In this document: positions 28,631-61,648 of the stretch, one piece after another
Layout: every line of letters starts with the position of its first letter
How positions within the stretch are numbered: position 1 is the first letter of the stretch
Source: Nilaparvata lugens
Taxonomy: Eukaryota > Arthropoda > Insecta > Hemiptera > Delphacidae
NCBI RefSeq assembly: GCF_014356525.2
Contig: NC_052512.1
Location: 1,350,797-1,414,796 of the forward strand
DNA length: 64,000 bases
Reading direction: 5' to 3'
Position numbers and translations under genes: made by a program
Notes under the pieces: generated by a model
Told to the model about the DNA's origin: nothing
Databases searched by the model: none
The model's input: the letters and a program-made list of their open reading frames with translations, nothing else

Positions 28631-29116
28631 AAATAAAATAAATGTTGGCTAGCGCACAAGTTTCCAACAATACTAGCTGAGCTACTATATGAAAAATTAT
28701 ATTTGATTTCGCAAACCAAACGAAAAATATCATATAAGTTAGCATCATTTCAATCTGAATTATTCCTTTTCTAAGAGTATTATATCAATTTATATAAAAG
28801 TTAACATCATAATTAATGAAGTATTCATTTTCTAAAAGCATTATATTAATTTATTACGGCTGTTTTCATAAATGTTGCATTGTATATTAATGACACTCTG
28901 GCAAGTAAATTTGTTTTAAATCTGTCAAATTTTGAGAATGAAATCAGAACATCAAGATAAAATCTAAATTAAATAACAGAATAAACTCCTGTTTTAGCTT
29001 TTGATGAATTGTAGGAAGAGTTAGAAATTAATGCTGTAATACATTTATTTACAGCGGTTCATGTGTGTTCCCAAACCAACTTCTTGTACTACCACCCCTT
29101 TGGTTCCGCAGCTTTA
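28631..29116. other. AT-rich flank of the Gypsy element
   Basis: No gene can be supported. TTATTTACAG followed by a GC-richer 60-bp stretch (29055-29116) resembles a splice acceptor and the start of an exon cut by the Gypsy LTR, but there is nothing to confirm it. Confidence 0.35.
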
Positions 29117-30320
29117 TGTTCTCAGTAGATTTTCGCCCACACCTTTCTCTATCAGAGTTCCCAGTATCGCTTTGGGCCGGCTAAACTCAGTCGGCGACTG
29201 GGGAGGGCCGCGGCAGGTGACGGGAGTCTTGGTGGGGCGTCCGTCAACCACCCTCGTTTGAGTTGGGGGTTGAAACAGGGTTTTGAGTGTTTTGGAGAAA
29301 TGTTTCCCTCTTTTAGGAAAGAGGGGCCGTGCATTCGCACTGCCAAACAGGGTTGGTCACGGAATGAAGGGAATAGGAACCTTGCGGTGCCAGACGCGAG
29401 AAAGGGCTTCGTGTTGGGACTAAGTCTTAGTCCTTGGGCACCGGGTGTCTTCCCGGGGTCCGGGTTGGTCGCGGAGCTCTGGTAAAGGCCTTCCCTGGCC
29501 TTCCCAGAGGTCCTCTTTCGGTTCCGCACTGGATTAGTGCGCTGCGGCGGCTCGCGCTCTGGACTTTCCTAAGTCCCACTTGCCGGACACCAGCTGTCCT
29601 CCTGGGGTCCGGATCGGTCGCGGAGTCGCGAAAAAGGTTTTTCCAGACCTTCCTCAAGGTCCTTTCTCGATTCCGCACTGGATTGGTGCGCTGCGGCGGC
29701 TCGCGCTCTGGACTTCCCTAAGTCCTACTTGCCGGGCACCAGCTGTCCTCCTGGGGTCCGGATCGGTCGCGGAGTCGCGGGAAAGGTTTTCCCACATCTT
29801 TCCAGAGGTCCTCTTGCGCCTCGATGTTCCACTGGTGGTCTACCAATGGGGAGTCAGGTTTTGACCAAACCTGACGTGTCGCCGTTGGTCGAAACTGGTA
29901 GCCCGTCGTCTAAACGGGTTAAATGTCATTCAGCACTCGCCCAAACGGGTGTTGAGCAATGGAGTTCACTGTGTTTGAGACTAATCGTCTTTAGCCTCAA
30001 CACAACTCCCGGTCGCTGAAGAAATCGGAGTTCACTTCAGTACAAGACGTACTGTGACGTTGCTAGCTGCTCGCTGCTTCCTTCTCACCTCACTCGACCG
30101 ATCGCCCTGGCTCTCCGAACTCGACTGCCTCCTGCTAGCCTTTCTCGAGCCTCCCTCAGTGACCGAGAGGGAGGGGAGAGAGGATGCGCAGCACCGCTGA
30201 GTGGTAGGCCAGTGGCTGGCTTGAACGTTGACCCCTTAGATTCTATCAAAGATAGCCGAGCGTCAAATAAATGAGCCCTAAATTCAATTCCTTCCTCTAG
30301 TTACGATATACATTGTAACA
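29117..30320 (-). repeat. 3' LTR of the Gypsy element
   Basis: On the sense (minus) strand it starts TGTTACAATGTATAT and ends near CTACTGAGAACA. It contains three tandem units of about 148 bp (about 29420-29815), each with TCCTGGGGTCCGGATCGGTC or a close form and a CGCACTGGATTAGTGCG-type hairpin. One copy of the minisatellite core (CCGTGCATTCGCACTG) is at about 29327. Confidence 0.88.
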
Positions 30321-30587
30321 CACTGTTCCTACTAAGTGAAGGGGGGGAAAAGAGAGGAGGAGGAGAGGGGGGGGTGAGGATGGAAGGGGTAAATGGCAGA
30401 CAGAATGTTCCAATGCCTGAGTACATTCTGCCGCCTCTCCGCCGGTCATCATAGACCGAACACAAACTGGGCGCCAGGTTGACTCCTTGCCAACCGGTGG
30501 TGGTGCATCGGCACCATCCGAAGAAATGAGCAAGCTAACTGGCCAGATCCTAGGCCTAGCTCCAGAGAAGATCTTAAAGATCTGCCC

Positions 30588-32745
30588 CGTGCTTTCGCAC
30601 TGCATTGAAACGCCGTGTTTGCACACTGCAAGAGACCGCCGTGCTTCCGCACTGCAATGGGGGACGCCGTGTTTGCACACTGCAAGAGACCGCCGTGCTT
30701 CCGCACTGCAATGGGGGACGCCGTGCTTTCGCACTGCAAAGAAGGGCCGTGCTTTCACACTGCAAAAAAAAAAGGACGCGGTGCTTTCGCTCTGCAAAAA
30801 GGATGCCGTGCTTCCGCACTGCTGGGACGCCGTGCTTCTGCACTGCAAGGGGGTGCGCCGTGCTTTCGCACTTCAAAAATAAGGACGCTGTGCTTTCGCA
30901 CTGCAAAAGGGATGCCGTGCTTTCGCACTTCAAAAATAAGGACGCTGTGCTTTCGCACTGCAAAAGGGATGCCGTGCTTCCGCACTGCCAGGAAACGCCA
31001 TGCTTTCGCATCGCAAAAAGGACGCTGTGCTCCCGCACTGCAGAGTTGCCGTGATTCCACACTGCCGAGGACGCCGTGCTTCCGCACTGCAGATGAGAGT
31101 CGCGGTGCTCTCGCACTGCCAGGAGGGGAGGGTAACACAAAATAGAAAAAGAAACGAGGTGAACAACACCTCAGACCGGTTCTGAGAACCTGAGTAGCAT
31201 TGCAAGGGAACGCCGTGCTTCCGCACTGCAATGAGACGCCGTGCTGTCGCACTGCTAAAATGAGGACGCGGTGCTTTCGCACTGCAAAAAGGATGCCGTG
31301 CTTTCGCACTGCCCGGGGCGCCGTGCTTCCACACTGCCAGGGAACGCCATGCTTTCGCATCGCAAAAAGGACGCCGTGCTCCCGCACTGCAGAGTTGCTG
31401 TGTTTCCACACTGCCAAGGACGACGTGCTTCCGCACTGCAGATGAGAGTCACGGTGCTCTCGCACTGCAAAAAAAAGGACGCGGTGCTTTCGCACTGCCG
31501 AGTCGCCATGCTTCCACACTGCCCTGGACGCCGTGCTTCCGCAATGCAGGTGAGAGCGCAGTGCTTTCGCACTGCCGGGGAATCGCCGTGTCACACTTGC
31601 AGGACACTGCCGGGAAGTGTTGTGCTTCGCACTGTACATAAATGGACGCCGTGCTTTCGCACTGCCGAGTTGCCATGTTTCCACACTGCCCAGGATGCCG
31701 TGCTTCCGCACTGCAGGTAAGAGTCGCGGTGCTCTCGTACTGCCGGGAGGGATGGGTAACACAGAGCACAGGAAATACACAAAACACAAAAACACAAAAA
31801 ACACAAAAACACAGGAACACAAAAACACAGAAACATATCGCCAGGCTTTCGCCCTGCAGGCCGTGCTTGCACACTGTGTGCCGTGCTTGCGCACTGCGAG
31901 CCGTGCTCGTGCACTGGGTGCCGTGTTTTCACACTGCAGCGGTGTTCCCACACCGCGAAGGTGTGCGTCCGCGTAATGACAATCCAGACACTCACTGACC
32001 GATGTGTCATGCTTGCGCACGACATTCGGACGAGCTCGCAATCTGGCTGCAGTGTTCCCACACTGCTCTGGTCAAGCTCGTGCACTACCTTTGCTGGGCT
32101 TTTGCCCTGCGGGCCGGGCTTTCGCCCTGCGTGCCGTGCTTGCGCACTGCGTGCCGTGCTTGCGCACTGCGTGCTGTGTTTTCACACTGCCGCGGTGTTT
32201 CCACACCGCAAAGGTGTGCGTCCGCGTAATGACAATCCAGACACTCACTGACTGATGTGTTGTGCTTGCGCACGACGTTCGGACGAGCTCGCAATCTGGC
32301 TGCAGTGTTCCCATACTGCTTTGGTCAAGCTTGTGCACTACCTTCGCCGGGCTTTCGCCCTGCATGCCGTGCTTGCTCACTGCGTGCCGTGCTTGCGCAC
32401 TGCGTGCCGTGCTTGCGCACTGCGTGCTGTGCTTGCGCACTGCGTGCCATGCTTGCGCACTGCGTGCCGTGCTTGCGCACTGCGTGTGCCGGGCTTGCGC
32501 CCCGCGTGGCCGTGCTCTCGCACTGCCTAGCTTCGCTGTGCTTGCGCACTGCATGTGCCGGGCTTTCACCCTGCATGGCCGTGCTCTCGCACCGCCTCAC
32601 TTCGCCGTGCTTGCGCACTGCAGGTGACGGTCTTGCGCCCTGCATGGCCGTGCTCTCGCACCGCCTAGCTTCGCCGTGCTTGCGCACTGCATGTGCCGGG
32701 CTTTCGCCCTGCATGGCCGTGCTCTCGCACTGCCTAGTCGCCATG
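30588..32745 (-). repeat. GNRA-hairpin minisatellite in the Gypsy 3' region
   Basis: Roughly 70-80 units built round GCCGTGCTTTCGCACTGC on the plus strand. Read as sense RNA each gives GUGC-GAAA-GCAC, a 4-bp stem with a GNRA tetraloop, often extended past an A.G mismatch by two more pairs. Loop variants remain mostly GNRA (GAAA, GCAA, GGAA, GAGA, GGGA). Stem variants are mostly compensated: AUGC/GCAU, GUGU/ACAC and GGGC/GCCC. Spacers range from 2 to over 20 bp. Higher-order repeats are seen at 31929-32120 versus 32169-32370. Long open frames across it on both strands are by-products of repetition. Confidence 0.92.
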
Positions 32746-32754
32746 GTTGCTTAC

Positions 32755-33936
32755 TTACGGCTTGACCCAAGCCCGTCGCCCGTCAGGGAGGCGCAATCGG
32801 ATCCTCGGGCGCCCGGCGCGAGGGCGCTTTCCGGGGCGGAAGGACTGGTGTGTGACCTTCCTCACTGTAGGCCGATCTCCAATCGTGATGAGGGCAAGGC
32901 CTCGTCCGCAGTCGGTGGTGGACAGGCGAACTGCCGGTGGTAACGAGGTGTTCTCCTCTTCGTCCTCGGAGGAAAGTTCGAGGACCTCGGATTCATCAGG
33001 GCGGACGGAAGTGGCGGGACGGGGAGGTGTCAACGGCTGGCTGCTGGTGACAGGAAAGCAACTGGAACTTTCTGGATGCTCACGAGGTTCTGTGGAGGCT
33101 GCTCCCCAAGCCTCAGTGAGTCCCCTCTCTTGTATCCAACATGGAGTAGGGAGAGTCGGGGTCGCGGACCTTGTTGCGTCGAAAGGAGGGGTCGCAGGTC
33201 GGACGGCTTCCTCAGGGGTTCCGTAGGCCGGCGAGATTGAGAAGCCCTCACCTCCTCCTTCGAGCAAGGCGTCTTCATCCTCCGTGGGGACCTCTGGGAT
33301 TTCCATGGGAGTGTCAGCGATGGTGGAGGTCGATGGCACTGGAGTCCCGGCCCCAACCGGACTGGAAAGAGGTTGGGGAGCGGGCTGGGTCACCGTGAAT
33401 ACTATGTTGCCGTCGCGGCTCGTTTGCAGAGCAGGAAACTTTTCGAACAACTCCCTGGAGGCAGCCTCTACCAAGCTGTCTACCGGCGGAGTTCGCTGCT
33501 GGAGGAGCCGGAGCAGCTGTTGACCGATGATGCGTTCTGATTGCCATCGGGTGAGGCCTTCCCGGTTGTGCTGGTAACACTGCACATCCCATCCAGTGAT
33601 GAGGCGTAGTCTCTTCACTTGACAGAACTTGGCCATGATTGCGTGGATGGCCTCATAATCATCCATCGAGGTCTTGTGACCGGGGTCCAAGATGGTGGTG
33701 GTGGCCTCCTTCCGGTTTACTACGGCAAGGGCAATACCTCCCCCCCGAATCAGAGGAAACCCGAGGAGGGTGTCCCTCTTCAAATTCCCCAGTACGTCCC
33801 GTAGTCCTTCTGGGGTACGATTCGCATGTCGAGTGCGCAGTGCTTGGAAAGGCGTAAACCTTGCCTTCTCAGTTAGAGACAGCTGCTCCATCTCCCGTAA
33901 CACCTGGTCTGTGAAAGAGGCCCGGAAAGACAGCAT
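32755..33936 (-). CDS. Gypsy ORF3 of unknown function
   Basis: An intact 393-codon frame lies between integrase and the 3' LTR, the env position, but it has no signal peptide or membrane segment. Residues 1-165 look globular and helix-rich (for example KTSMDDYEAIHAIMAKFCQV at about 88-107). Residues 180-290 are Pro/Thr/Ser-rich and probably disordered. Near residue 325 EVLELSSEDEEEN resembles a SUMO-interacting motif (hydrophobic core followed by acidic residues). The C-terminus is strongly basic (RPGKRPRAGRPRIRLRLP), resembling a nuclear or nucleic-acid-binding tail. It is the only long intact frame of the element, while gag-pol has stops. I do not recognise the family; a gag-like or accessory protein is possible. 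Confidence 0.6.
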   Translation of the reverse strand: MLSFRASFTDQVLREMEQLSLTEKARFTPFQALRTRHANRTPEGLRDVLGNLKRDTLLGFPLIRGGGIALAVVNRKEATTTILDPGHKTSMDDYEAIHAIMAKFCQVKRLRLITGWDVQCYQHNREGLTRWQSERIIGQQLLRLLQQRTPPVDSLVEAASRELFEKFPALQTSRDGNIVFTVTQPAPQPLSSPVGAGTPVPSTSTIADTPMEIPEVPTEDEDALLEGGGEGFSISPAYGTPEEAVRPATPPFDATRSATPTLPTPCWIQERGLTEAWGAASTEPREHPESSSCFPVTSSQPLTPPRPATSVRPDESEVLELSSEDEEENTSLPPAVRLSTTDCGRGLALITIGDRPTVRKVTHQSFRPGKRPRAGRPRIRLRLPDGRRAWVKP

Positions 33937-35654
33937 TTTCTCTTTGAAGAATTGGTTGATGAGAAAATTCGCAGAAGTAGATAGGGAGGAAGGTAATAAG
34001 TGACGATAAGTGATGTTGAAGAAGAGAAGTCAAGGATGACGTTGACAAAGTTTGGAGGAGAATAAAACACAAGTCCAAAAACTCAAGAAAAAGCACCAAA
34101 AAAAAATGAACTAGAAAACGAAGACGCTATTTGAAGAAGAGTTGATGAGAGAAATAAAGATGAAAATCACAAAGTCCACTCGTAATAAAATTGCTCCACT
34201 ATAGCCTGTAACTAGATGTTGTCTACTCGGTAGCTCACAACAGACTGACCGAGTGAAGTTTGAGAAGCATCCATAAACGGGGAAAAACAGGAATAAACGG
34301 GAACTATTAGATTGAATAAAGTGAAAAACAATGCAGGATCGGACAAGAATAATCTGTTTAGTAGACAAAATAAATTGATTATTTTATCTTATCGCTAAGC
34401 GTCGACCGCTCAACAGGCATGTAGCACTGAAATTCAGATTCAACTGGCAGAACTGTATAATAGGAAAAATGCTGTTTCCCGATGCCAATTCTTATATGAG
34501 AAGATGACAAAGTCTTTTCTCATAAAATTCCTTACTAGAATTGTTTTATTGAAGATAGAAATATAGCCACAGAAAATGTCTACAAGCACGGGCCATGGGA
34601 AACTCGGACCTGTCTACTGAACGTGACTAAATCACAATTAAAACAGTAGCACAATAAAGCATAGGCTACTGTAATACCAATACAGCTCCAGTGTCTTTCA
34701 AAACGAGATGAAATTGAGCGAGTTGAAATAATGAAGATTTTATTTCAGTAAAACCATTTTCTGGTCATTTTCATTTTCAATAAAATATTGGAGCAAAATT
34801 GATCAAAATTTGAAACCAACAAGAACGATTGTAGTGCACTATGACTCACAATCACAAGCAACTTATTCAAATACCATGAATAATCGGTTGCAATCACATG
34901 CAACTTATTCAAATACCATGAACAATCGGTTGCCCAATCACACGCAACTTATTCAAATACCATGAATAATCGGTTGCAACATAATATACTTCTATCCACA
35001 GAAAAAATAACTCCTGTTATTTTCTGTATCATAATTCACTAATTACCACAGACCCAAGCAATTATCGCCGGCTTTATTTTATGATCAAAATAAAATATTT
35101 AATCCATAACCTCATGGACAAATAATATTATTCAGAAAAATCTGACAATTAATCTCCTCCAATGTTAATTATCGTTAAACAGTTCACAGATTGTGAACGA
35201 CAACATGAAAAATGAAATAATGCAAATTCCATCTCTTTGACCCGTGCTTGGTAAGGGGAATTGGATTACGAGCTCTGAGACAATAAGATGGCGATATTGT
35301 TGGAGACGAAAATAAAAGCAACAATAATTTTTCGACTTAAAAGAAAAAGCCCAGAAACTGCTTATCTGTTTAATTGAACTAGAATGGTTGGGTTGCCACT
35401 CAGCTCAATTTTGACTCTGTTTAAACAGGACCATTTACTCGAAAGAAAATTGTTATGAATGCTACCTTTAAATATAGGCCTTATGTCTACATATTTCTCT
35501 GAATTGAGACATAATTATTTCATGCTCCAATATCAGGCTAGTTTCAACTATTCCAATGCTATCAATTATCTCAAACCCCATAATCAAGCGGGCTATACTT
35601 CAAAATGTATTTTCCTCCAAATTTTGGTGTTATATCTCCTTCTGGTCACTCACC
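33937..35654 (-). other. Non-coding stretch between integrase and ORF3
   Basis: About 1.7 kb with no supported gene. It contains a threefold tandem repeat of about 48 bp (34850-34995). Its base composition is AT-rich, unlike the GC-richer coding part. Confidence 0.6.
34850..34995. repeat. About 48-bp tandem repeat, three units
   Basis: Units contain CAACTTATTCAAATACCATG followed by AATAATCGGTTGC or AACAATCGGTTGC. Confidence 0.9.
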
Positions 35655-38600
35655 TTACTGCTGCTGTTGAATTACTCTTCCTCGATACTCCATCAGCCGA
35701 GTGGGCAGCGACACCCGGCTTACTCGATTCCTCCTGCCGTCACTGCTCTCCTCCACACTGGCTCCTCCATCATTGTCCTCTCGGCCGTCGCGGGCGGCTC
35801 GCATTCCGCTGCCGTCCTCTCCATCTTCCTCCTCTTCCTCCTCGGGAAGGGGCAGCAAGATTTTTATATCCTTCACGTGAACAGTCAGCATTTTACCAGC
35901 AGCTCCTTTCAGCAACACCACAGAAGCGCTCAACATTTTCTCTACCTCATAAGGCCCAGAAAATTTTGGAGCTAGCTTAGCCGCAAACTGATTCACTCCA
36001 GACGAGAGATGATAATCCCTCTTGTAGATCAACTGGCCCGTCCTTAGTTCCAGTGGTCTTCGCCTAAGATTATAATACCTCCTGGTATTATTATAGGCCT
36101 CGTTTAGGTTATCTAAAACAAGCTTCTGTGCACGCTTCAGTACTTGCAACCTCCTCAGCTGGGCTGCTCGACTCGTGCCTCCATCCTCCTGTCAAGGATC
36201 GTCTTCCTCCTCACCACAAGCATCTCCTGGTGCTCTCAACTCTCTTCCGAAGTTGAGGAAGGCAGGAGTATACTTAGTGCCTACATGTACTGCTGTATTC
36301 ATGGCGAAACAGAATTCCTCCACATAGCGATCCCAATCCGCATGGTGCTCGCCCACATAGAGCTGTATCATAGTCTTCATGACTCTATTAACCCTCTCCG
36401 TAGGGTTGCAGCTCGGTGTGTAGGGTGGGGTGTAGAATAATGTGATGCCGTTCTCCTTACAGTATGACTTAAAAAGCCTACTTGTATACTGTGTTCCATT
36501 ATCACATATGAGCAGCTTCGGCACCCCAAATTTGGTGGCGACTAGCTCCCTCAAAGCTCGCGCTACGGCATTGCTGTCTGCCTGAGCTAGCGGCCGAGCT
36601 TCCATCCACTTCGTGAACTGGTCCTGAAATACCACCAGGTATTTATTCCCTCTTTTCGAGCGAGGTAACGGACCTACAATATCGGTGCTAACAGTCTCCC
36701 AGGGTCGCACCACCTTCCTCTGGCTGTTCATCTGTCCGTATGGAGGCCGCTGCTCCACCTTATGCCTCATGCACGTCTCACAGCGCCTCACATACTTCGC
36801 GACGTCCGCATACAAGCCTGGCCAATAGTAGCGACAGGCTACCCGGTGATAAGTCCGGAATACTCCTTGATGGCCCGCTGTCGGGGCATCGTGGCTCTGC
36901 TGAAGTATCTCCCTCCTAGCACCTCTCGGAACACATAGCTTCCAGCCATCACTCTCCGGCGCATCAGGAAGTTGTTGACGGGCCCATATGTGTCGATACA
37001 ACGCCTCACCCCTTACCATATAGTCGGGGTATTTCTGTGGATGATGGAGTAGATTGTTCTTCATCCTCCTTATCCATCGGTCGTCTTCCATGACGATGGC
37101 GGCTACTGCTCCTGTGGGCTCCTCCTGACCTTCCTGTGGACTTGCCAGCATGTCGCCTCCTGGCAATGCTCGTGAGAGAGCATCCGGGACCACGTTTAGC
37201 TTCCCTCTTTGATACTTGATGACCAAGTTGTATTGCTGCATCTCTAAGGCCCACCTTGCTAGACTTCCTGTTGGGTTAGGGATAGCTCTAAGCCACTTTA
37301 GAGCCTGGTGATCTGTAATCACTGTAGTCTCATACCCCTCTATATACGGCTTGAATTTTCTCAGGGCGAAAATCACAGCCAGGCACTCCTTTTCGGTGGT
37401 AGAATACCTCAGCTCGGCCCCCTTAAGCCCTCTGCTTGCGTAGGTGATGACCTTCTCCTCTCCATCGACCTCCTGAGTAAGCACAGACCCTAGTCCATAC
37501 TCAGAGGCATCTGTCTGGAGCGTGAACGGTAGTTCAAAGTGAGGATATGTGAGCACTGGAGATCTAGTGAGAGCCCCCTTTATCTCCTGGAAAGCTCTCT
37601 CCTCTTCTGGTCCCCAGTGCCACTTCACTCCTACCTTCAGCAACCGGTGAGGAGGGGTTGCCAGGTCCGAAAAATTCGGGACAAACCTCCTATACCAGGA
37701 CGCCAACCCCAGAAAACTCCGGAGCATCCTGAGCCGCTGCGGAGTTGGGAACTCGTTTACCGCTCTCACCGTCTCAGGATCAGTCCTGAGTCCTTGTTCC
37801 GTCACTATGTGTCCCAGGTAGCGTAGCTCTCGCTTCAAGAACTGGCATTTCTCTTGATTGATTATCAAGCCAGCTTCTCTCAGCCTACTGAACACTCTAG
37901 CTAGGTTCAGCATGTGAGCCTCCATCGTTTCTCCTAGAACGATGACGTCGTCTAGGTAAGCAAAAGCACAAGGCTCCAATTCCGGCCCAATTACTCGGTC
38001 TAGGAGGCGCTGAAATGTAGCTCCAGCCGAGTGTAGACCAAAGGGCATCATCCGGAACTGGAACAGCCCTCTTCCAGGAACCGTAAACGCTGTAAGCTGC
38101 TTACTCTGCTCCTCCAACGGTACTTGCCAGTAACCACTCTTCAAGTCGATTGAAGAAATGTACTTGGCATTCCTCAATCTATCCAAAATACCTGTCATAT
38201 TCGGCAATGGATATGCATCTCATTCAGTGAGTGCATTAATCTGCCAGAAATCGATGCAAAACCGCATCTTTCCATTAGCCTTCTTCACCAAGACGATTGG
38301 TGAACTCCACGGGCTACTGCTCGGCTCAATGACCCGCTGATCGAGCATACTGTCCACCTCCTCGTTTATCACCGCTTGCATAAGTGGGTTGCGAGGATAC
38401 GGACATTGTCGGAACGGCTCAGCTCCTTCCTTCAGCCTGATTCTATGAACCAGGAGGTGAGTCGCACCTGGTACATCTCTGAATTTTATCAGCTCCGTCT
38501 CCAGGAATTTCTCGAACTCCTCCCTTTCTGAAGCAACTGCTGCCACCTGTCCCACTAAAGCCGGAGGTAATATCATCCTCCTCTGCCTCAAGTCGAGTTT

Positions 38601-38681
38601 TGCTTGAATCGCTCTTAAATGACTTAATCCCAAAATCATCTCGGATTCTAACTCGTTGATCACTGCCACTCTCCAGTAGAC
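35655..38681 (-). pseudogene. pol: Gypsy pol: reverse transcriptase, RNase H and integrase
   Basis: One reading frame continues from gag, interrupted by TGA at 38220-38222 and TGA at 36192-36194. The first piece (38669-38220) holds the end of protease 2 and the start of RT (SSPWSSPIVLVKKANGKMRF). The second (38207-36192, 671 codons) has MMPFGLHSAGATFQ, the YLDD catalytic box at residues 84-87, RNase H (TDASEYGLGSVLTQ), the integrase H2C2 finger ending CETCMRHK, and the DDE core in STDIVGPLP, CDNGTQYTS and NPTERVNR. The last piece (36149-35655) is the integrase C-terminus with an acidic EEEEEEDGED run. All catalytic residues are present and only the stops break it. Both stops here could be CGA-to-TGA changes. 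Confidence 0.9.
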
Positions 38682-39293
38682 TCATCTACTACACACCTCG
38701 GCAGTCAGCTTCAGCTCCTCCACTACGGGAAGCTTTTCTCCAGTCACCAAGATCGGTTGATGACTAATCGGTTTCACCTGGCAATCGCCAGACTCCTTCA
38801 GTCGTCTTGCTGCCTCCCTCGAGACATAGGACGACTCGGCCCCGGTGTGGACCAGTGCATTCAGCCAGACATCCCGGACACGTATTAGCATGAAGACGCG
38901 TGTCTCCTGAGGCTGTGGACACCTTCCTTGCCTCTCTATCGCGGCTGCACCGGATTTCACCTCTCTTCCTCTGGCCTTCGCAGCTTTCTGGGTGGTTGTA
39001 GCACTCTTCTCCCTGGGTTGAGGCTCCCACTCCACCGTGCGTGCGCGGGTGTCCATTTTCACCCTGTGCTTCTGCAGGAACTGCATGCCGAATAAAAATT
39101 CGGGGGATAATCCTTCCATGATTGTCATCACTGTGGGAAGAATTTCCTGGCCGACTTTCAGGTTGATCTCCACCTTTCCATATAGCCGCGCCGCGGTTCC
39201 ATTCGCCAGAATCACGCCTCTCTCCGTCGGAGTTCTCCTTGCACATCCGGCTGCCTCTAAGCTTGCAAATGTTGCCAAGCTTAAGTAGTTGGA
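38682..39293 (-). pseudogene. Gypsy tandem retropepsin-like domains
   Basis: Two aspartic-protease-like domains follow each other. The first begins inside the end of gag at ALLDTGA (codon 520-523 of that frame, just before a TAG at 39294-39296) and closes with EFLFGMQFLQKH. The second begins near LNALVHTGAESSYVSREA, where His replaces the expected catalytic Asp. It closes across a TGA (38682-38684) with EMILGLSHLRA, the usual ILG-x-x-x-L step. A stretch rich in Arg, Lys and Gln links them. Retropepsins normally act as homodimers of one domain. A tandem pair, one without its catalytic Asp, is unusual and could form a pseudo-dimer (inference). Confidence 0.7.
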
Positions 39294-40865
39294 CTAAGCT
39301 CCTGTATCGAGTAGTGCTCGATACTGGTGGCCAGCTACCTCGACTGTGGTATACAGTCTGTTGTCGAACTGCGACTCCGGTTCCAGTTGGAGCTGGTTCC
39401 TAGTTCTCACCACTGCGGCTTTGTCTGTCGCCCTCTTCTGATCCTTCTCACAGGTGCAACTGGGACGAGGTTTCCTACAGCCCATGCAGAGAGAAATCTC
39501 AGGGCATTCCGACCTCCAGTGACCCGCTTTCTTGCAATGCCAGCAGGTAGGTCCTACTGGAGTCGACTCCACTCGCCATTGTGAAGTTGTAGGCTCTGGC
39601 TCGAGGCGCGCTTTCACAGGTTTACGAACCTCTTCCTGTTTCACAGTCCTCTGCTTCTGCTGAGCACTTTTCTCCTCCGATTTTATCCTCTCATACTGCC
39701 TGGCCAGCCTGAGTAGATCATCCACCGAATAGACTTCAGCTTCCCTGATGTACAACTTGTACCGGGGTAGAAGATTCTTGTACAGCCTCTGAAGCTGGTG
39801 GTTGATTGAAAAATCTCCTCTTCTTCTCATGAGAGTCTGAAGTTCTTCTACGTAGTCGTCGATAGCTTCGCCTTCACGCTGCCGTCGACCCAGGATTTGA
39901 GCATCCAGGTCTTCATCGTAGGTTGCTGGATAATAACGAGACCGAAAGTCCCTTACAAAATCGTTCCAATGATGCCAGAACCCTCTTTGGTTCTGCATCC
40001 ATAAGGAACACCTTCCTGCTAGCATTTCTGGTAGCGCCGGGAACAACTGCTCCCCTGTCAGCCCATAGGCTTGTTGTAACTCCTCGAGACGCTCTAGAAA
40101 GCTAGGAGCGTCTCCGTGGCCATCATATGACAACCTCCATCCTCGCACTTTATCACACACCGTCCCTGGGTCCATAAATGGTGTATGATGGGCTGCAGCT
40201 CGGATCGGTGAGTGTGGTGCCTGTTGTGGCCTGTACTGGTGAGCCGACGACTCCTCTGGTCTCACTAATGCAGGTCTCGCATGATACAGTGGGCCAGCTT
40301 CCACATGCGCTGACATTGACCTCGGTGGCGCTGGATGTATCACAGTCTCTTCAGCGGGAGGTAGCGGTAGCATCGTGAGGCATCGCTGCCGCTGCTCCGT
40401 TAACACTCTCCGCAACTCGGAACAGGTGCCGTCTGTGGGCACCGAGTCCAGGAGTAATTCGACCGCGTCTCTGCTCCGCAATCGATACACCCATGAATGG
40501 CATGATTCGCCATCGGAGGCTGGTGACGCCTCCTCGGGCAGCTTTCCAAGTCTAGAAGACTCCTGATGATCCTCCTCTACAGGAGGCCACAGAGACGTTG
40601 CTCCTTCCGCCTCGTGGTAGCTTGTGCTAGCTCCATTGCTAGCCTGGTTCAGGTTGCTGGCTTCCTCTGCTGTCTTCCTGTGATGGTCCACAAGAACCTT
40701 CCTTAGCTCCGCCATTGTACCTGTTGTAGGTAGCCCTGCTGATGCTGCTAGATCCACTGCTTCTTTCCGGTGGAGTTTGTAAATCCAGGACACTCCTGGA
40801 TCGCTGCTATCCTCTCGCGCCTCTTGGTCTTCTCCGGTGCAACTACATTTCTCCTCTGCACTCAT
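39294..40865 (-). CDS. gag: Gypsy gag polyprotein
   Basis: 523 codons, ending at a TAG that lies in frame with the protease. Residues 26-63 and 124-160 are two related copies of a short helical SAP-like motif (each SW-x-Y-x-L, then an ELR-x-VL step). Residues from about 230 to 400 form a retrotransposon capsid domain (PSFLERLEELQQAYGL, WNDFVRDFRSRYYPATYDED). A CCHC zinc knuckle, CWHCKKAGHWRSEC, occupies 441-454 and a second Cys cluster follows. The last residues are ALLDTGA, the active-site loop of protease 1. Gag would package RNA and form the particle. The ATG at 40865 lies 26 bp downstream of the primer-binding site, which supports this start. Confidence 0.85.
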   Translation of the reverse strand: MSAEEKCSCTGEDQEAREDSSDPGVSWIYKLHRKEAVDLAASAGLPTTGTMAELRKVLVDHHRKTAEEASNLNQASNGASTSYHEAEGATSLWPPVEEDHQESSRLGKLPEEASPASDGESCHSWVYRLRSRDAVELLLDSVPTDGTCSELRRVLTEQRQRCLTMLPLPPAEETVIHPAPPRSMSAHVEAGPLYHARPALVRPEESSAHQYRPQQAPHSPIRAAAHHTPFMDPGTVCDKVRGWRLSYDGHGDAPSFLERLEELQQAYGLTGEQLFPALPEMLAGRCSLWMQNQRGFWHHWNDFVRDFRSRYYPATYDEDLDAQILGRRQREGEAIDDYVEELQTLMRRRGDFSINHQLQRLYKNLLPRYKLYIREAEVYSVDDLLRLARQYERIKSEEKSAQQKQRTVKQEEVRKPVKARLEPEPTTSQWRVESTPVGPTCWHCKKAGHWRSECPEISLCMGCRKPRPSCTCEKDQKRATDKAAVVRTRNQLQLEPESQFDNRLYTTVEVAGHQYRALLDTGA

Positions 40866-40890
40866 TGCTGCTTTTCTCCTCCTGCCTTGG

Positions 40891-40908
40891 GCCCCACGTT
40901 GGGCGCCA
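40891..40908 (-). promoter_or_regulatory. Primer-binding site for tRNA-Lys
   Basis: The sense strand reads TGGCGCCCAACGTGGGGC. The plus strand therefore spells GCCCCACGTTGGGCG plus CCA, the 3' end of insect tRNA-Lys(CTT) as I know it from Drosophila. It begins immediately after the 5' LTR. It is not itself a tRNA gene, since no cloverleaf is present. Confidence 0.85.
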
Positions 40909-42238
40909 ATCTTCTGAGTAGATTTTCGCCCACACCTTTCTCTATCAGAGTTCCCAGTGTTGCTCTGGGCCGGCTAAACTCAGTCAGCGACTGAGGAGGG
41001 CCGCGGCAGGGGACGGGAGTCTTGGTGGGGCGTCCGTCAACCACCCTCGTTCGAGTTGGGGGTTGAAACAGGGTTTTGAGTGTTTTGGAGAAATGTTTCC
41101 CTCTTTTAGGAAAGAGGGGCCGTGCTTTCGCACTGCCAAACAGGGTTGGTCGCGGAATGAAGGGAATAGGAACCTTGCTGTGCCAGACGCGAGAAAGGGC
41201 TTCGTGTCGGGACTAAGTCTTAGTCCTTGGGCACTGGGTGTCTTCCCGGGGTCCAGGTTGGTCGCAGAGCTCTGGTAAAGGCCTTCCCTGGCCTTCCCAG
41301 AGGTCCTCTTTTGGTTCCTCACTGGATTAGTGCGCTGCGGCGGCTAGCGCTCTGGACTTTCCTAAGTCCTACTTGCCGGGCACCAGCTGTCCTCCTGGGG
41401 TCCGGATCGGTCGCGGAGTTGCGGGAAAGGTTTTTCCACACCTTCCTTGAGGTCCTTTCTCGATTCCGCACTGGATTAGTGCGCTGCGGCGGCTCGCGCT
41501 CTGGACTTTCCTAAGTCCTACTTGCCGGGCACCAGCTGTCCTCCTGGGGTCCGGATCGGTCGCGGAGTCGCGGGAAAGGTTTTTCCACACCTTCCCAGAG
41601 GTCCTTTCCCGATTCCGCACTGGACTAGTGCACTGCGGCGGCTCGCGCTCTGGACTTTCCTAAGTCCTACTTGCCGGGCACCAGCTGTCCTCCTGGGGTC
41701 CAGATCGGTCGCGGAGTCGCGGGAAAGGTTTTTCCACACCTTTCCAGAGGTCCTCTTGCGCCTTGATGTTCCACTGGTGGTCTACCAATGGGGAGTCAGG
41801 TTTCGACCAAACCTGGTAGCCCGTCGTCTAAACGGGTTGAATGTCGTTCAGCACTCGCCCAAACGGGTGTTGAGCAATGGAGTTCATCGTGTTTGAGACT
41901 AATCGTCTTTAGCCTCAACACAACTCCCGGTCGCTGAAGAAATCGGAGTTCACTTCAGTACAAGACGTACTGTGACGTTGCTAGCTGCTCGCTGCTTCCT
42001 TCTCACCTCACTCGACCGCTCGCCCTGGCTCTCCGAACTCGACTGCCTCCTGCTAGCCTTTCTCGAGCCTCCCTCAGTGACCGAGAGGGAGGGGAGAGAG
42101 GATGCGCAGCACCGCTGAGCGGTAGGCCAGTGGCTGGCTTGAACGTTGACCCCTTAGATTCTATCAAAGATAGCCGAGCGTCAAATAAATGAGCCCTAAA
42201 CTCAATTCCTTTCTCTAGTTACAATATACATCGTGACA
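40909..42238 (-). repeat. 5' LTR of the Gypsy element
   Basis: On the sense strand it begins near TGTCACGATGTATATTG (an alternative start 8 bp earlier, TGTTACATTG, is possible) and ends near CTACTCAGAAGA, directly before the primer site. It has four roughly 148-bp tandem units (about 41216-41755) against three in the 3' LTR. It lacks about 25 bp present in the other LTR near 29865-29900. One minisatellite core, CCGTGCTTTCGCACTGC, is at about 41120. Confidence 0.88.
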
Positions 42239-43326
42239 ATGTAACACCGCTTCAAGACACCCATTCAGACAACAGGTCTAGGGACGTAAGAGGACGCCGC
42301 CGTCAAGCCAAATTCAACCGGTAAAAGCTCACCGCCAAAAACAAGGTACTGTAGCCCCGACGATAAAGCAACGTACAGACCAACGAAAGTGCAGTGTAGT
42401 GGAACAAAGGTTCATTTGAGAATGTCAATCAAAAGTGGGGATTCAAAATTATTATGAAATGGGCTATATGGGTTACTATCAACAAAACTTGGGTTCAACG
42501 GGCTTTTCTTTCTTGAGTAATTTTATGTTGAAATTAACTTGTTATTTGATGACTGATATTGTTTGGTTTTGTGATGTATTGCTATCTAAAAGGGGATAGT
42601 AATGCGCCCCCGAATCAGATGAAGAATGTCAACAAAGTAACATGAAATTGTTGTTTCTGTTGTTCGATTTTAGTTGCCAATGTTTATTGAAGCTGTTTGT
42701 ATTTTTCAATTATTTCAAATTGTAGTGTTATTCTATAGTATAAACCTATTAATCAGGCATGGCAAGATTAATTAATTGAAGTTTTCTTGACTCTAGCCCG
42801 TTCACCTGCATGAATTAGGTATAGACTCAGGTATTTTCTAGATGTGTCGGCCTATTTCTAAATTCTAAATTCTATTCAAAATTATCTTCTTTATCACCTT
42901 TAAAAAGGTCAGGCACACAACTGCGCCACTGCTGCTGAATGTTTAGCGAAAGGCACACAAATCATAAATGTGAAATATTATACTAAATGATAATGAAATG
43001 CAGATATATTGTATTATGAAATGATTGTGAATAGAAGACCAATTGTCTGAAATTATTGAAATATGTATTGAAATTTTTTTTGTTGTGATGATCTGATGTT
43101 TTTTACAATTTTGATAATGATACAGAGTGTTATGAAATTTATGTATCATGTATTTGTTTATGTTCTAAATTTTGAAGAATGGATTAAATTTTGTTATTTG
43201 AACAGTGAATAAATGGAAATGAAATTATTTTTTTTATTAAAATTCTGTAATTGATGTCTCCATTGAGTTTGAGTAAATTTCACAATTTATGTATTGCTGA
43301 CTGTATAATAAGATGTTAACTTATTT
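42239..43326. other. AT-rich stretch without recognisable gene
   Basis: I see no supported gene, RNA or repeat boundary. The first 170 bp are GC-richer than the rest. Confidence 0.5.
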
Positions 43327-55529: not shown

Positions 55530-55579
55530 ATTATCTCCCACCCCACCTGGATACCTCAACTTCGTATATTTAAAAAGGA

Positions 55580-56509
55580 ATGTCCACAAGAGAGAAACTT
55601 GCACATGAGCTACATGGTAGAGTCAGACATAATTTCCTCACACGTCACACTGAAATAAAAGGTCTAACAGATTTATATCAAGCTGATATTGTTGACATGT
55701 CCAACTATAGCACATTAAATGAGAACTTTAGATACATACTAACTGTGATTAACTGTTTCAGTAAATTTGCATTTGCAATACCAATGAAAACTAAAACTGG
55801 AAAGGAGGTGGCAGCAGCATTGAAACCAATACTCAAAAAACATAAGATTATCAATTTTCAAACTGATGCAGGTGAAGAGTTCTACAACACAACTGTTCAG
55901 AATCTCTTCAAAACATATAAGATCAACCATTACAGTACATATAGTGATAAGAAAGCTGCAATTTGTGAATGTTTCAACAGAACTCTTAAAGAGAATATGT
56001 TCCGTGAATTCACTATACAGGATAATCATAAATGGTTGGAACTGTTACCAAAACTTATCTCAAAATATAACAACACGACACATCATAGCATTAATACGAA
56101 ACCAATTGATGTGAATAAAGAAAATGAAAAATATGTACCAATGAATTTAGATAAAAGTGCACAATGTGAAATTGGCAATCAAAGTAAACCAAAATATAGA
56201 ATTGGTGATAAGGTACGCATAAGTCGATACAAATCAATATTTGAGAAAGGTTATCTCCTAAACTGGACAAATGAGATTTCCACCATACAAAATGTTCTCC
56301 CCACTAAACCCTTTACCTATAGATTGAAAGATATAAACAATGAAATTATCAAGGGTACATTCTATGAATATGAAATGAATAAAACAAAATATCCAGATAT
56401 ATTCCTCATTGAAAAAGTATTAAAGAAAAAGGGTAGTAAATTGTATGTTAAATGGCTTGGATTCGATAAATCTTATAATTCATGGGTTGAAGGTGATGAT
56501 ATAACATAA
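55580..56509 (+). CDS. Polinton integrase with C-terminal chromodomain
   Basis: An intact frame of 309 codons, close to the usual core length for retroviral-like Polinton integrases. The DDE triad is visible: D36 in LYQADIVDM, D96 in FQTDAGEEF, and E130 in AAICECFNRTLKEN. A beta-rich C-terminal domain (KYRIGDKVRIS at about 205-215) is followed by a chromodomain at 274-309, with FLIEKVLKKKGSKLYVKWLG and a YNSWV aromatic cage residue. It catalyses insertion of the element; the chromodomain may steer it to methylated histones (known for chromointegrases, inferred here). This is the best preserved Polinton gene in the window. Confidence 0.92.
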   Translation: MSTREKLAHELHGRVRHNFLTRHTEIKGLTDLYQADIVDMSNYSTLNENFRYILTVINCFSKFAFAIPMKTKTGKEVAAALKPILKKHKIINFQTDAGEEFYNTTVQNLFKTYKINHYSTYSDKKAAICECFNRTLKENMFREFTIQDNHKWLELLPKLISKYNNTTHHSINTKPIDVNKENEKYVPMNLDKSAQCEIGNQSKPKYRIGDKVRISRYKSIFEKGYLLNWTNEISTIQNVLPTKPFTYRLKDINNEIIKGTFYEYEMNKTKYPDIFLIEKVLKKKGSKLYVKWLGFDKSYNSWVEGDDIT

Positions 56510-56523
56510 TATAATAAAAAAAT

Positions 56524-57174
56524 ATGCTGAAATTGAAACAACATCAATCAAAACTACCTGTCATGAATTTTGATAAATTCCTTACTAAGAAGAATATCAA
56601 TTATCACAGACACAGCGAACTTTTACCAAATTCCATATGATGTATTGTTTGTGGTCCAAGTAATTCTTGGAAAACAAATACAGTATTCAATTTACTATTT
56701 GCACAGAATGTTGTCAAGTACCAACTTCTAAAGCAGATTATGATACAAATACCTGAAATTGACTTCAACATGTATCAAGATAATGATGGAATACCACACT
56801 CAAATGATGCACACCCAAATTCAGTTATGATTTTTGATGATATTTGTATGGAAAATCAACAGAATATCCGCAACTATTTCAGTATGGGTAGACATAATGA
56901 TATTGATTGTTTCTACACTTCTCAAACTTATTCCAGTATACCCAAGCAGTTAATTCGTGATAACACAAACTTGATTGTTCTATTTAAACAAGATAATCAT
57001 AATTTAACACACATATATTTTGATCATATTTATCCTGATATGAATAAGAGAGAATTTGAAGAAATGTGTGCTCAATCTTGGAGAAAAAATAATAACACAT
57101 TTCTAGTCATAAACAAAGAGTGTACTAGAAGTAATGGTAGATATAGAATTGGTTTTGATAAATTTATACAGTAA
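56524..57174 (+). pseudogene. Polinton packaging ATPase (A32/FtsK-HerA type), one stop
   Basis: The frame from ATG 56524 is broken once, by TGA at 56638-56640, just before the P-loop. The P-loop reads CGPSNSWKTN, where the Gly normally preceding Lys is Trp, so ATP binding would be lost even without the stop. Walker B is SVMIFDDIC, followed by FYTSQTYSSIPKQLIRDNTN, the sensor/arginine region typical of these genome-packaging ATPases. The frame ends at 57174, and the next gene starts 8 bases on (57182). Confidence 0.85.
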
Positions 57175-57181
57175 TATAAAA

Positions 57182-58179
57182 ATGTATAGGAAAGATTTAA
57201 AAGAGTTGAGTGCACTCAAGAAAAATATTAAACAACTGCGTGATTCAATACTCCAGAAGCACCATCAATTATCAGGTGATGTAGCAAGTGAGGAGGAAAA
57301 CTTTCAAAAACAATTCAAACCTATTACAGAATCATTGAAACAGTTGAAACAACCTTTTCTAGAAGCAACTATTAAAAAGGAAAAAGAAGAATTAAAACAA
57401 GAAAAAGAAGAAGAATTAGATGATGAAGAATTAGGAGATGAAGAAGAAAATAGAGTAGATGATGATAATGATGGAGAAGTATCAGTAGAAGAAGAATCAA
57501 ATAAAGACATGGTTTAAAAAATATATTTGATACAAGTCTCCAAAGACTAAAATCATCTGCACATAGGCGCAGTGTATCTACTTATATAGACAATTTCATG
57601 AGATCAACAAAAAGAGGTAATATATATGGTGTTCACTTCAACCCCGATATTGATGAGTGGCAAATTGGTGATAAAGTAGTCAAATTTGAAAATAATGATA
57701 TTATAATTGATAACCAACATCCACTTACTCTCACACATGGTCTATTGGAATTACTTTTCAAAGCAGTACCAGATACATTCATTTATGGTAGGAAAGATTT
57801 AAAAACCTATTAATGAATACTTGAAATAACTAGAGTTCATCTTGATAGTTTGGGACGTGTTAAAAGGAATCATGGGTATAAATACACAAGTATAATCAAA
57901 AATTCATTTCCTCCAAAGTTATCTAAGAAGAAACCTATCTCTGGTAGAGGAGGAATGCATGTGGAAGGAGTAGAAGAAGATATGCAAATTGAATTAACAA
58001 AGAGAAAAAGGAAAAAGAATTATGTCTATTGGGATGATCCAAATGAATTTATTGAGAGATTAGAGTTCTTAGTAAATTCTAAACTAGCAGGACACACTGG
58101 ACACAATTCTGAAATTGCATCTATTATTGAAGAGTTACATGAAATTGGAATAATTATAGGTGGAAATTTAGTATTATAG
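57182..58179 (+). pseudogene. Polinton DUF8207-type protein, broken into three pieces
   Basis: The N-terminal piece 57182-57517 is a coiled coil (RKDLKELSALKKNIKQLRDS) followed by a strongly acidic Glu/Asp run. After a frame change, 57598-57813 gives GVHFNPDIDEWQIGDKVV and LTLTHGLLELLF. After TAA-TGA, 57850-58179 gives RNHGYKYTSIIKN and YVYWDDPNEFIERLEFLV, ending in GHNSEIASIIEELHEIGIII. The last block is the conserved part of the DUF8207 family common in Polinton-bearing insect genomes. Its function is unknown. The ATG at 57182 is preferred because an upstream ATG lies inside the ATPase gene. Confidence 0.75.
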
Positions 58180-59219: not shown

Positions 59220-59946
59220 CCTAAGAATTATTGTGTGGGCAATGGAAACAATTTGGTGGCAGGACGTTTGAAACGACCAGTAGCTAAACGTACTACTGCC
59301 ACACGTATGACACCATCGCTCCAGGAAACACTTCCTCAATGATTCCTAGAGGCCACTTCAATGGGGGTAGATTAGGCTGATCCACTATCACAACCGTTCC
59401 AACAGTGAGAGGAGGTGATGACTTGGACCACTTTCCACGTACTTGTTATTCATGGAGATACTCCTTTCTCCACCTATTCCAAAACGATTGAACAAGCTGG
59501 TCGATGAGTTCGTAACGAGTGAGACGATTGATGGGAATGTCGGTCACATCCTTCATTGGAAAAGCCGTCAACGGTGTCAACTTCAAAAAATGAGCCGGAG
59601 TTAAGGCGAGAGGTTTGTTTGGATCCTCGCTCAAAGGGCACAATGGCTGAGAGTTCAACACCGCCTCCACTTGAACCAACGCAGTATTCATCTCCTCATA
59701 GGTCAATAGTTGATCGCCAATCACTTTTATCAAATGTGACTTGACCGATTTTATGTTGGCCTCCCAAATTCCACCGAAATTTGGGGAAGCAGCGGGAATG
59801 AATTTCCAATCCACTCGATAATCAGCCAGCTCATTAGTAATTGTATTTTGAAACTCCGATGAATCGACAAGAAGGGTGATGAAAGGATCACTCTTAGGCA
59901 AGACAATAGGGTGACAGCTGTCAAAATCCATGTCTGAGTTCGGCAA
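59220..59946 (-). pseudogene. Pao integrase fragment
   Basis: The open piece 59446-59946 starts near HPIVLPKSDPF and then moves directly to WKFIPAASPNFGGIWEANIK and ALVQVEAVLNSQPLCPL. The zinc finger and the first catalytic Asp residues expected between these blocks are absent, so an internal deletion removed the front of the integrase. Downstream, after a stop, LPPLKWPLGIIEEVFPGAMV and, in another frame, VRLATGRFKRPATKL are the C-terminal domain. Not functional. Confidence 0.8.
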
Positions 59947-59958
59947 ACGACCACCAAC

Positions 59959-61515
59959 TCAAATTAACTCCTTGTCTATAAACGGTGACAAACGCTGAAA
60001 TTTGGGGGCACAATCTTCACCCTTTTTTAGTTGAACAAGCTCACGTGAAAAATGAATTCTCTGTACGACTCTACACAAATATCTCTCCGCCACATCGAAT
60101 TCCAGTTCACCTGCTTTCGGCAATATTCGCACTGCCTTCAATACTAGTATCATGATACGAAGCAAACGTTGATAGTCAGAGCATTTCTCAATCAAATTAT
60201 ATATTACATTATCTGAAACACTTTCAGATTGAACAACTGTGACAACATTTGAAGATTTCATTTCAGGTGGACACTCTATTTCTTCAATTTCAAATTTTAC
60301 AGGCCAGTGATTTTCCTTCATAGTCAACCAGTGGGGTCCTGTCCACCATGTCTCGTGATTAATGAGATCCATTGGTTTAAGACCACGCGATAAACAAACT
60401 GTGGGATTTTCCTCACCAGAAACATGCATCCAACAATCGATGCATGAGTTTTGAATTTTCGAGACTCGATTAGCCACGAACGTTTGCCCACGCGACGGCG
60501 AACCTCTTATCCAATGGAGAACAACAGTTGAGTCCGACAAAGCGACAACTCGGACGATTTTACAACAAAGTTCGAGGACAGAGAGGGTAGCTTCAAGTAG
60601 ATTGACTAGGAGAAGAGCAGCGCACAATTCCAATCTTGGTATTGATAGAGTTTTACTCGGTGCAACCTTTGATTTTCCACACAGCAGCGTTACTGTTGAA
60701 GAACTACCATCTTCTTCCTGTGATTTCAAATAGATCACAGCTCCATAGCCAGACTGACTTGCATCACAAAAACAAATTAATGTAATCTTGGAACCAACAA
60801 ATACTCCTAAGTGACGAGGAATGGACAAATTCGACAAAGATTGAAATTCTGTTTGACATATCTCCCACTGAGATGCAATAGAATCAGGTGGTTTTTCATC
60901 ACAATCTGAACCAATACGCCATAATTCTTTTATAAGACATTTCAAAAACAACGTGAGAGGAGCCACTAGTCCTAGAGGATCATAGATTCGCGCCACAGCG
61001 GATAATATATTCCGTTTTGTGGCAATAGAGTGACCCTGTGAGACGAAAAAACGAAACGAATCGGAAAATGGTTGCCACTCTAGACCTAATATGGCTAATG
61101 AATTTTCGATATTGAATTCTTAGGACAACAAGGATCTTTCACTATGATTGAGACTTGTCATCAGCTCCTCCGAATTTGACGCAAACTTAGTCAATTCAAA
61201 TCCACCAGCTTTAAACAGCTCTTTGGCCTGACTACACAATTTTTTCGCGTCACTTACAGAAGGGACAGACGTTACCAAATCGTCCATGAACATATCTGTA
61301 GGAATGCGAGCTTTAGCATCTGGGAAATTATCGCCTCCCCTCTCAACCAACTCATGGATAGTTCTCAAAGCCAAGTACGGAGAGGAAGTGATACCAAATA
61401 CGACACAATTTATTTCATAGGTTTCAACAGGATCGTCTACCGAAAATCTCCATAACACCCGCTGAAATTCACAGCAAGATTCACTCACAAATATTTGACG
61501 ATACATCTGTTTCAA
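59959..61515 (-). pseudogene. Pao reverse transcriptase and RNase H
   Basis: 61515-61120 carries FGITSSPYLALRTIHEL and the RT catalytic DD in MFMDDLVTS, then GGFELTKFASN. After a TAA (61120-61122) the same frame goes on to 60996-59959 with ARIYDPLGLVAPL, the RNase H opening FCDASQSGYGAVIY, and SKTLSIPRLELCAALL. The order and wording are characteristic of the BEL/Pao superfamily. A TGA at 59959-59961 separates it from the integrase piece. The RT N-terminus is missing. Confidence 0.88.
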
Positions 61516-61648
61516 ATCACCTGTCTAAATACTAACTTATCCGCTAGGGCGCAGCAGCTGCCGGCCTCGCCACTCCAACTACCGCGAGACTTAAAACTAA
61601 TTTAAAACTAGACTTAATCTAAATACGCTAAAGGGCGTCACCAACCAG

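Follow-up and report, generated by a model that had tools for sequence, protein, structure and literature searches.

An array of GNRA-type hairpins in a planthopper Ty3/gypsy retrotransposon as a candidate cis-acting RNA element

In plant Ty3/gypsy elements of the Tat/Ogre group, tandem repeats are found in the 3' untranslated region (UTR), and they are thought to have been born of abnormal strand transfer (PMC7004042). Here we describe a tandem array in a Ty3/gypsy retrotransposon with long terminal repeats (LTRs) of the planthopper Nilaparvata lugens, which is part of a stretch of 64,000 nucleotides (nt) of contig NC_052512.1 (positions 1,350,797 to 1,414,796, forward strand; called "the window" below). 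The array is similar to the Tat/Ogre repeats in that it follows the last coding region, precedes the 3' LTR and has a variable copy number (PMC7004042). However, the Tat/Ogre region is described as hypervariable both in its monomer sequence and in its length, and the main text does not use the words hairpin, palindrome or stem-loop (PMC7004042), whereas the planthopper array has an 18-nt unit that is common to 38 of 38 loci, to two families, to the LTR, and even to the diverged copy L167 (LTR identity 78-81%).

A second group of related systems are packaging signals. The planthopper units have the form of short stem-loops in common with the HIV-1 leader hairpins and the signals of Ty1 and Ty3 (PMC7599994), and the element encodes a Gag zinc knuckle. 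Zinc knuckles of Gag read short retroviral stem-loops, some of them with GNRA-type tetraloops (PMC7599994). In contrast, the packaging signals of retroviruses and Ty elements are single, differing hairpins near the 5' end, while dozens of similar hairpins at the 3' end and one in the LTR are present here. Little is firmly established about the packaging signals of LTR retrotransposons, including those of yeast Ty3 (PMC11381356); the UTRs and POL are involved in Ty3 packaging, and the sequences responsible lack a precise definition (PMC4974528, PMC11381356). On the sense DNA strand the units also share the loop rule of GNA/GNNA DNA mini-hairpins (PMC4686876), but here many closing pairs are T-A, and loop base 3 is nearly always a purine in young copies. 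A full-text search of PMC papers, judged by titles and the beginnings of abstracts, turned up neither this element nor any LTR element with a conserved array of hairpins. By type, the array would be a cis-acting motif of a retroelement that is repeated in tandem, and 3' UTR tandem repeats themselves are already known.

The comparison of copies described below suggests that the hairpins have been preserved by natural selection. On the evidence of the sequences, the chances are about even that the array, with about 20 to 140 tandem 18-nt hairpins, is a functional, selected cis-acting element of this Ty3/gypsy family, and its site of action is probably the sense genomic RNA.

The hairpin array in the window and in other copies

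The unit has the form 5'-GCA-[4 nt]-GNRA-[4 nt complementary]-N-GC-3' and comprises an outer 2-bp GC clamp, an unpaired A opposite a variable base, a 4-bp stem, and the GNRA loop. The units of the window were scored by sequence, not by structure, which resulted in a list of 74; a looser cut-off gave 77 candidates, the first of which is false. A GNRA loop is present in 68 of the 74 units, 287 of the 296 stem pairs are standard pairs, and 61 units are fully intact. An initial annotation of this stretch, made from the sequence alone, had described a minisatellite at 30588-32745 with units of a 4-bp stem and a GNRA loop on the sense strand, and this description was verified, including the stem types GTGC/GCAC, GTGT/ACAC, GGGC/GCCC, ATGC/GCAT and the 7-bp stem GCGGTGT/ACACCGC, the positions of which were right within a few bases. 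The orientation that it had noted was also found: between 30580 and 32760 the minus strand contains 59 exact Watson-Crick hairpins with a 4-bp stem and a 4-nt loop, 53 of them with GNRA (93 and 63, respectively, if G-U pairs are allowed), and the plus strand contains 59 exact hairpins and 83 with G-U pairs, none with a GNRA loop in either count. Beyond that annotation, one extra hairpin was found in each LTR, and the outer GC clamp and the unpaired A were recognized as parts of the conserved unit. The sequence GTGCGNRAGCAC, with at most one mismatch, has 53 matches in the window, compared with 0.53 expected by chance, and every one of them is on the minus strand; 50 are located in the array, two in the LTRs, and one in pol. 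The possibility that the array is a coding sequence was rejected; both strands can be read in more than one frame over long distances without a stop, but the unit periods vary between 20 and 30 nt and are not multiples of three.

A query of the 1.085-Gb genome with the array gave 179 matches, and the best 40 of 599 candidates were scored. The array was present in all 38 loci that were fetched, with a total of 3326 units and 22 to 144 units per locus (the value of 22 belongs to a contig-end fragment, and some counts include the LTR hairpin). The exact 18-nt pattern had 11,282 matches in the 1.085 Gb, and the reversed control had none. For a sampling independent of the array, the block that follows the array was used for the search, the best 40 of 351 candidates were scored, and in 20 new copies the sequence was read over 250 nt upstream of the block. 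Again, the array was present in all 20; among their 180 units, 715 of 720 stem pairs were formed, the loop was GNRA in 166, loop base 1 was G in 169, and loop base 4 was A in all 180. All copies were thus found with element sequence as bait. Outside of the host, the exact pattern was found in four stretches of viral contigs with one match each, and in at least 118 stretches of bacterial and archaeal contigs, with one match each among the 80 listed, both of which is chance-like; a search for the pol sequence in viral contigs led to no confirmed match. Two of the 38 loci, L136 and L161, contain inverted pieces of the array with 17 and 11 reverse units, respectively, and two others, L138 and L165, each have two post-array blocks with LTR starts in a single stretch, and hence 3' ends that are in tandem or duplicated.

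The single hairpin of the LTR was unchanged in stem and loop in 17 of 18 LTRs, although the surrounding 120-nt piece was 89-100% identical. In L167, in which the end of open reading frame 3 (ORF3) has only 75% identity, both the array and the LTR hairpin have been kept. The hairpin of the 5' LTR would be part of the 5' leader of the genomic RNA, provided that transcription starts upstream of it.

The end of an ORF3 of the window type was located upstream of the array in 19 of the 38 loci and was missing in the other 19, some of which begin near a contig end. Six of these ORF3-less loci (L171-L176) were chosen, and about 9.5 kb upstream of the array were fetched. All six contain a 5' LTR like that in the window, with 85-96% identity over the longest stretches, followed by a leader and a gag gene with 69-78% nucleotide identity to the window element, and none has DNA similarity (E 1e-8, at least 60 nt) to the reverse transcriptase (RT), RNase H, integrase or ORF3 pieces; nevertheless, all six lead into the array. 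In Pfam searches, a frame of 949 amino acids (aa) in L172 contained Gag, a zinc knuckle and a protease, but neither RT nor integrase, and a 322-aa frame in L175 contained remnants of a protease and matched, weakly, a further zinc knuckle. Where the sequences reached that far, the post-array block and the LTR have also been kept. By eye, the order in the sister copies is an end that resembles an integrase tail, an AT-rich stretch, and then the array; L175 differs from the other five in having many more matches to the LTR repeats. Thus, the array has been retained by a family that carries gag but has no detectable polymerase or integrase core. This retention is the main hint of a function, because non-autonomous elements are expected to keep their cis requirements.

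Conservation of the hairpins in young and older copies

The age of the copies was estimated from the divergence between their two LTRs. Five copies of the sister family are young, with 0, 0.45, 0.61, 1.14 and 1.18% divergence (339-669 sites; the data for the sixth pair were insufficient), and three copies, all of which have ORF3, are older, i.e., L162 (4/189 sites), L158 (10/375 sites) and the window copy (3.05%), with K values of 0.021-0.031. The fractions of fully intact units were 95.4, 98.4, 92.9, 97.3 and 97.6% in the young copies, and 75.2, 75.0 and 82.4% in the older copies. The initial annotation had named related copies as the place to look for the same array; it is indeed there, and its pairing is near-perfect in young copies, but poorer in older ones.

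The 460 units of the young copies were analyzed together. They form 1830 of 1840 stem pairs (459, 452, 459 and 460 at the four positions), and seven of the ten failures are a T-T pair, mostly in one decayed unit type. The loop is GNRA in 452 units, with G at base 1 in 457, a purine (A or G) at base 3 in 455, and A at base 4 in all 460. Base 2 is variable (A 227, C 116, G 114, T 3), and all eight GNRA loops occur. T at base 2 is also rare overall (64 of 3326 units), although GNRA permits it. The stems are GTGC/GCAC (274), GTGT/ACAC (87), GGGC/GCCC (48), ATGC/GCAT (13), GTGC/GCTT (6), and G-U variants and singletons for the rest. When the 3' arms were dealt anew in 2000 rounds, a mean of 293 and a maximum of 313 units were fully paired, compared with the 450 observed. 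In 248 pairs of neighbouring young units with differing 5' arms, both own stems can pair in 232 cases, while the 3' arm can pair with the next 5' arm in 93 cases. Therefore, the pairing is within units.

Constraint was quantified in 49 array ends with seven units, and columns in CpG context were kept apart from non-CpG columns. In the non-CpG columns, minor alleles occupied 60 of 2046 stem cells, of which 54 (by addition) fall on a single position that changes together with its partner, compared with 380 of 2433 spacer cells (stem versus spacer, 0 of 20000 permutations). The loop bases differed strongly, with minor alleles in 88/292 cells at base 2, 15/292 at base 3, and 0/342 at base 4. The values were also low for the outer clamp (6/485 and 3/293) and the unpaired A (1/340). 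In CpG context, the values were 19/341 for loop base 1, 11/49 and 21/49 for one loop-2 and one loop-3 column, respectively, and 70/341 for the closing stem base. A similar picture was obtained when the 12-nt cores were sorted by their distribution, after the removal of the 15 inverted-loop units of L136 and L161. Of the cores present in at least 6 of the 38 loci, 29 of 38 were intact, compared with 22 of 156 private cores (Fisher test, 7e-13 with one root left out); six of the nine common cores that were not intact carry a CpG change of loop base 1.

The stems were also analyzed for covariation. In a test similar to R-scape with the window units alone, the second stem pair was paired in 71 of 74 units, compared with a null value of 37.9 (0 of 400), when the tree was built without the stem columns; when they were included, P was 0.035, and thus the outcome depends on the tree. 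The first and third stem pairs were not significant with either tree. Duplicated segments of the window provided too few comparisons to tell the rates of stems and spacers apart. For 85 distinct young units, the paired cells (94.7% versus 86.9%), the double-changed cells (42 versus 10.8) and the covariation score each exceeded all 500 shuffles. At the array ends, five unpaired closing cells were observed, compared with 37.6 expected. There, T-A closing pairs travel with GCAA or GCGA loops and have GGTCTCTT as their upstream spacer, and C-G pairs are mostly found with GAAA or GGAA loops and other spacers. The constraint is the stronger evidence for selection, and that reading is based on the array ends and the young copies, not on the covariation counts.

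Possible function of the array and rival explanations

The function that we tentatively favour, by analogy with retroviral stem-loops, is that of a multivalent packaging tag for Gag, which we rate as somewhat less than an even chance. Many similar sites, each of them weak, would together provide avidity for the zinc-knuckle domain of the element's own Gag, and the full-length RNA would thereby be recognized and packaged. The LTR hairpin would contribute one site in the 5' leader. A multivalent array near the 3' LTR, the additional LTR unit, and the retention of the array by a gag family that lacks polymerase would all fit such a tag. The number of units would shift by slippage or by strand transfer between repeats, and selection would tolerate this because the unit matters, not the count. 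Alternatives to packaging are nuclear export, keeping the RNA unspliced, dimerisation via neighbouring arms, or binding of a host protein. A more elaborate version is rather doubtful: the array would be a self-renewing barcode of GNRA hairpins in a region that is spliced out, so that Gag would collect only full-length RNA, and the gag family that lacks polymerase and integrase would survive by the same barcode and shared particles.

Several explanations do without a selected RNA. An ordinary minisatellite would have started from a palindromic unit born in the LTR, slippage would have amplified it, and the hairpins would have been inherited, unselected, from a few types. The array indeed contains higher-order repeats and duplications as well as few stem types, CpG decay at the rate calibrated with the LTRs (13/114) predicts about four changes per CpG position in 74 units (five to seven were seen), and one-step non-CpG changes did not differ between shared and private cores when the common intact cores were set aside (P 1.0). 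Nevertheless, this explanation is disfavoured and appears improbable, since spacers and loop base 2 have diversified widely and stems and loop base 4 have not, the young copies are near-perfect, and the array was present in all sampled copies of both families. It is also unlikely that a copying bias, i.e., template switching in the hairpin or conversion between units during synthesis by DNA polymerase or reverse transcriptase, restores complementarity without selection. Template switching can make and maintain hairpins with double changes (PMC8794818), and T-A units have been swapped as a whole, so that copying bias could account for the paired double changes. It could not account for the fixed loop bases, because such copying does not protect them, and yet bases 1 and 4 are nearly fixed, base 1 even within a CpG, and base 2 is free. 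In addition, loop inversion is a known by-product of template switching (PMC8794818, PMC8604942), but inverted loops (TNYC) were found in none of the 460 young units and in only 15 of all 3326, all in L136 and L161 with their inverted array pieces.

Two further explanations retain a function, but place it elsewhere. If single-stranded DNA were the selected form, GNNA/GC mini-hairpins in the cDNA would stop synthesis or make it pause, protect the ends, or promote strand transfer. When at least two G-C pairs close them, GNNA loops give DNA hairpins of unusual stability that resist nucleases (PMC4686876), the orientation is the same for plus-strand DNA as for sense RNA and both would fold alike, and pyrimidines do occur at loop base 3 (11 of 292 array-end cells; GACA and GATA units exist). 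However, in the young copies the closing pair is T-A or T-G in 103 of 460 units, which thus lack a double GC closure (C-G in 357), and together with the near-uniform purine at loop base 3 this fits an RNA GNRA loop better than DNA; the DNA form has a low probability in our view. Equally, there is little to make us expect that the array promotes nuclear export of the RNA or keeps it from being spliced, with only unspliced genomic RNA carrying the array between 5' and 3' splice-site-like motifs, although the motifs themselves are regular. GTAAGT or GTGAGT was present at the ORF3 stop in 16 of 16 other readable ORF3 copies, GTAAG(A/T) was present just 3' of the stop in all six sister copies, and of the 30 copies that extend to the LTR, 29 have a pyrimidine tract followed by AG in front of it. 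Because such motifs flank the array, it may lie in an intron, but a search for processed copies led to no convincing example; the first junction pattern had no match, and the second had two (control: one), of which the one examined was unrelated.

A number of results weigh against a selected RNA element. In Ty1 and Ty3 many cis signals have been placed at the 5' end (PMC4974528, PMC11381356). The initial annotation had proposed folding of the minus strand, and in the minimum free energy structure of the whole array only 26 of the 74 units form their own hairpin, compared with 28 on the opposite strand; when pairs were restricted to at most 40 nt, the numbers were 46 and 37. The arms of neighbouring units are also mutually complementary. 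Constitutive transport elements lie between env and the 3' LTR in some retroviruses. The position of the array in the genome is similar, but none of 4227 Rfam families matched positions 29000-42400 at E<=1. Relatives that lack the array are under-sampled, because element sequence served as bait. Intactness and age were correlated with a Spearman coefficient of -0.64 and a P value of 0.09 for the eight copies, and age is confounded with family. The equality of one-step changes in shared and private cores mentioned above belongs here as well. Furthermore, the two measures that are least prone to relatedness showed no excess over the shuffles in the 85 distinct young units, i.e., pairs in which both sides have changed (4 versus 3.5) and further pair types (9 versus 8.9). 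The T-A and C-G closing pairs keep their own loops and spacers, and therefore whole units have been exchanged; the difference between 5 and 37.6 unpaired closing cells thus goes back to a small number of original events, and the orthology of the array ends is not strict. Owing to this shuffling of units between copies, the diversity of the spacers is partly a diversity between unit types. The covariation is real, but it is traceable to a few ancestral unit types.

Taken together, the proposal of the initial annotation that selection or a copying mechanism maintains an RNA fold is supported as far as the maintenance is concerned, as judged by the retention of the array, the near-perfect young copies, and the constraint on stems and on loop bases 1 and 4. 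It is less well supported by covariation and as regards RNA, which is the probable form next to single-stranded DNA. Compensatory changes that go back to a few events in a few unit types were what the annotation had regarded as contrary to its proposal, and covariation alone comes close to that outcome. If the array is indeed a selected RNA element, it would be a natural test of RNA selection based on avidity, with one array common to a full-length and a polymerase-less family, and it would exemplify that a transposon-borne "minisatellite" can be a functional element instead of junk. The constraint test, with its comparisons of young and older insertions, spacer and stem, and loop bases 2 and 4, can be transferred to repeats of other transposons.

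Layout of the host element and further observations

The array belongs to a Ty3/gypsy LTR retrotransposon on the minus strand, in which the LTRs, the primer-binding site (PBS), gag, and the protease-RT-RNase H-integrase region are present in this order (Table 1).

Table 1. Positions of the element, the array and the LTR hairpins in the window
Feature	Position	Strand	Remarks
5' LTR	40910..42246	-	bounds judged by eye
Hairpin in 5' LTR	41119..41138	-	33 bits; ~210 nt upstream of PBS
PBS TGGCGCCCAACGTGGGGC	40891..40908	-	read from sequence
gag with CCHC zinc knuckle	39294..40865	-	Pfam PF03732, PF00098
Protease, RT, RNase H, integrase core	36192..39278	-	in-frame stops interrupt frame
Integrase C-terminal tail	35655..36149	-	weak PF24626 match, E 0.015, under family cut-off
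AT-rich stretch	33950..35650	-	GTGAGT start directly 3' of pol stop; intron-like by eye
ORF3, 393 aa	32755..33936	-	without Pfam match, without detected homologue
GTAAGTAAG, 5' splice-site-like	32750..32758	-	overlaps ORF3 stop codon
Hairpin array, 74 units	30587..32740	-	between ORF3 and post-array block
Upstream (5') array part	31845..32735	-	short spacers, periods ~20 and ~69 nt, 253-bp duplication, units including GGGC/GCCC
3' array part	30587..31747	-	pyrimidine-rich spacers, periods ~24-30 nt, higher-order repeats ~108 nt
Post-array block, ~256 bp	30331..30586	-	identity between copies 81-96%; ends with pyrimidine tract and TTAG (3' splice-site-like)
3' LTR	29117..30320	-	bounds judged by eye
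Hairpin in 3' LTR	29326..29345	-	25 bits; loop GAAT in window copy

The two LTRs of the window copy differ at 24 of 788 compared sites (3.05%); 13 of these differences are among the 114 sites in CpG context, and 11 among the remaining 674. The element is a dead copy, because in-frame stops break its gag-pol frame. The PBS is presumably of the tRNA-Lys type. The post-array block contains the PBS-like sequence TGGCGCCCA in 25 of 31 copies, which matches the start of the PBS and resembles the bipartite 5'-3' PBS of Ty3. For ORF3, no homologue was found among 7996 scored candidates.

Some additional observations were made. On the sense strand, a C-rich pyrimidine tract was seen by eye next to the 3' LTR, and no polypurine tract. 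Tandem repeats of 149 bp are present within the LTRs (29439-29814 and 41292-41754). Elsewhere in the window, the frames at 55574-57517 and 63099-63536 resemble by eye the integrase, packaging ATPase and protease of Maverick/Polinton elements, and those at 59446-61524 a pol of the BEL/Pao type. Translated with the invertebrate mitochondrial code, the COX1 sequence of the genome is 100% identical to that of Nilaparvata lugens records. Five full-length COX1 matches with equal score exist in the genome (G000:C9, C15, C6870), and the four on chromosome-sized contigs may be recent mitochondrial insertions or assembly joins.

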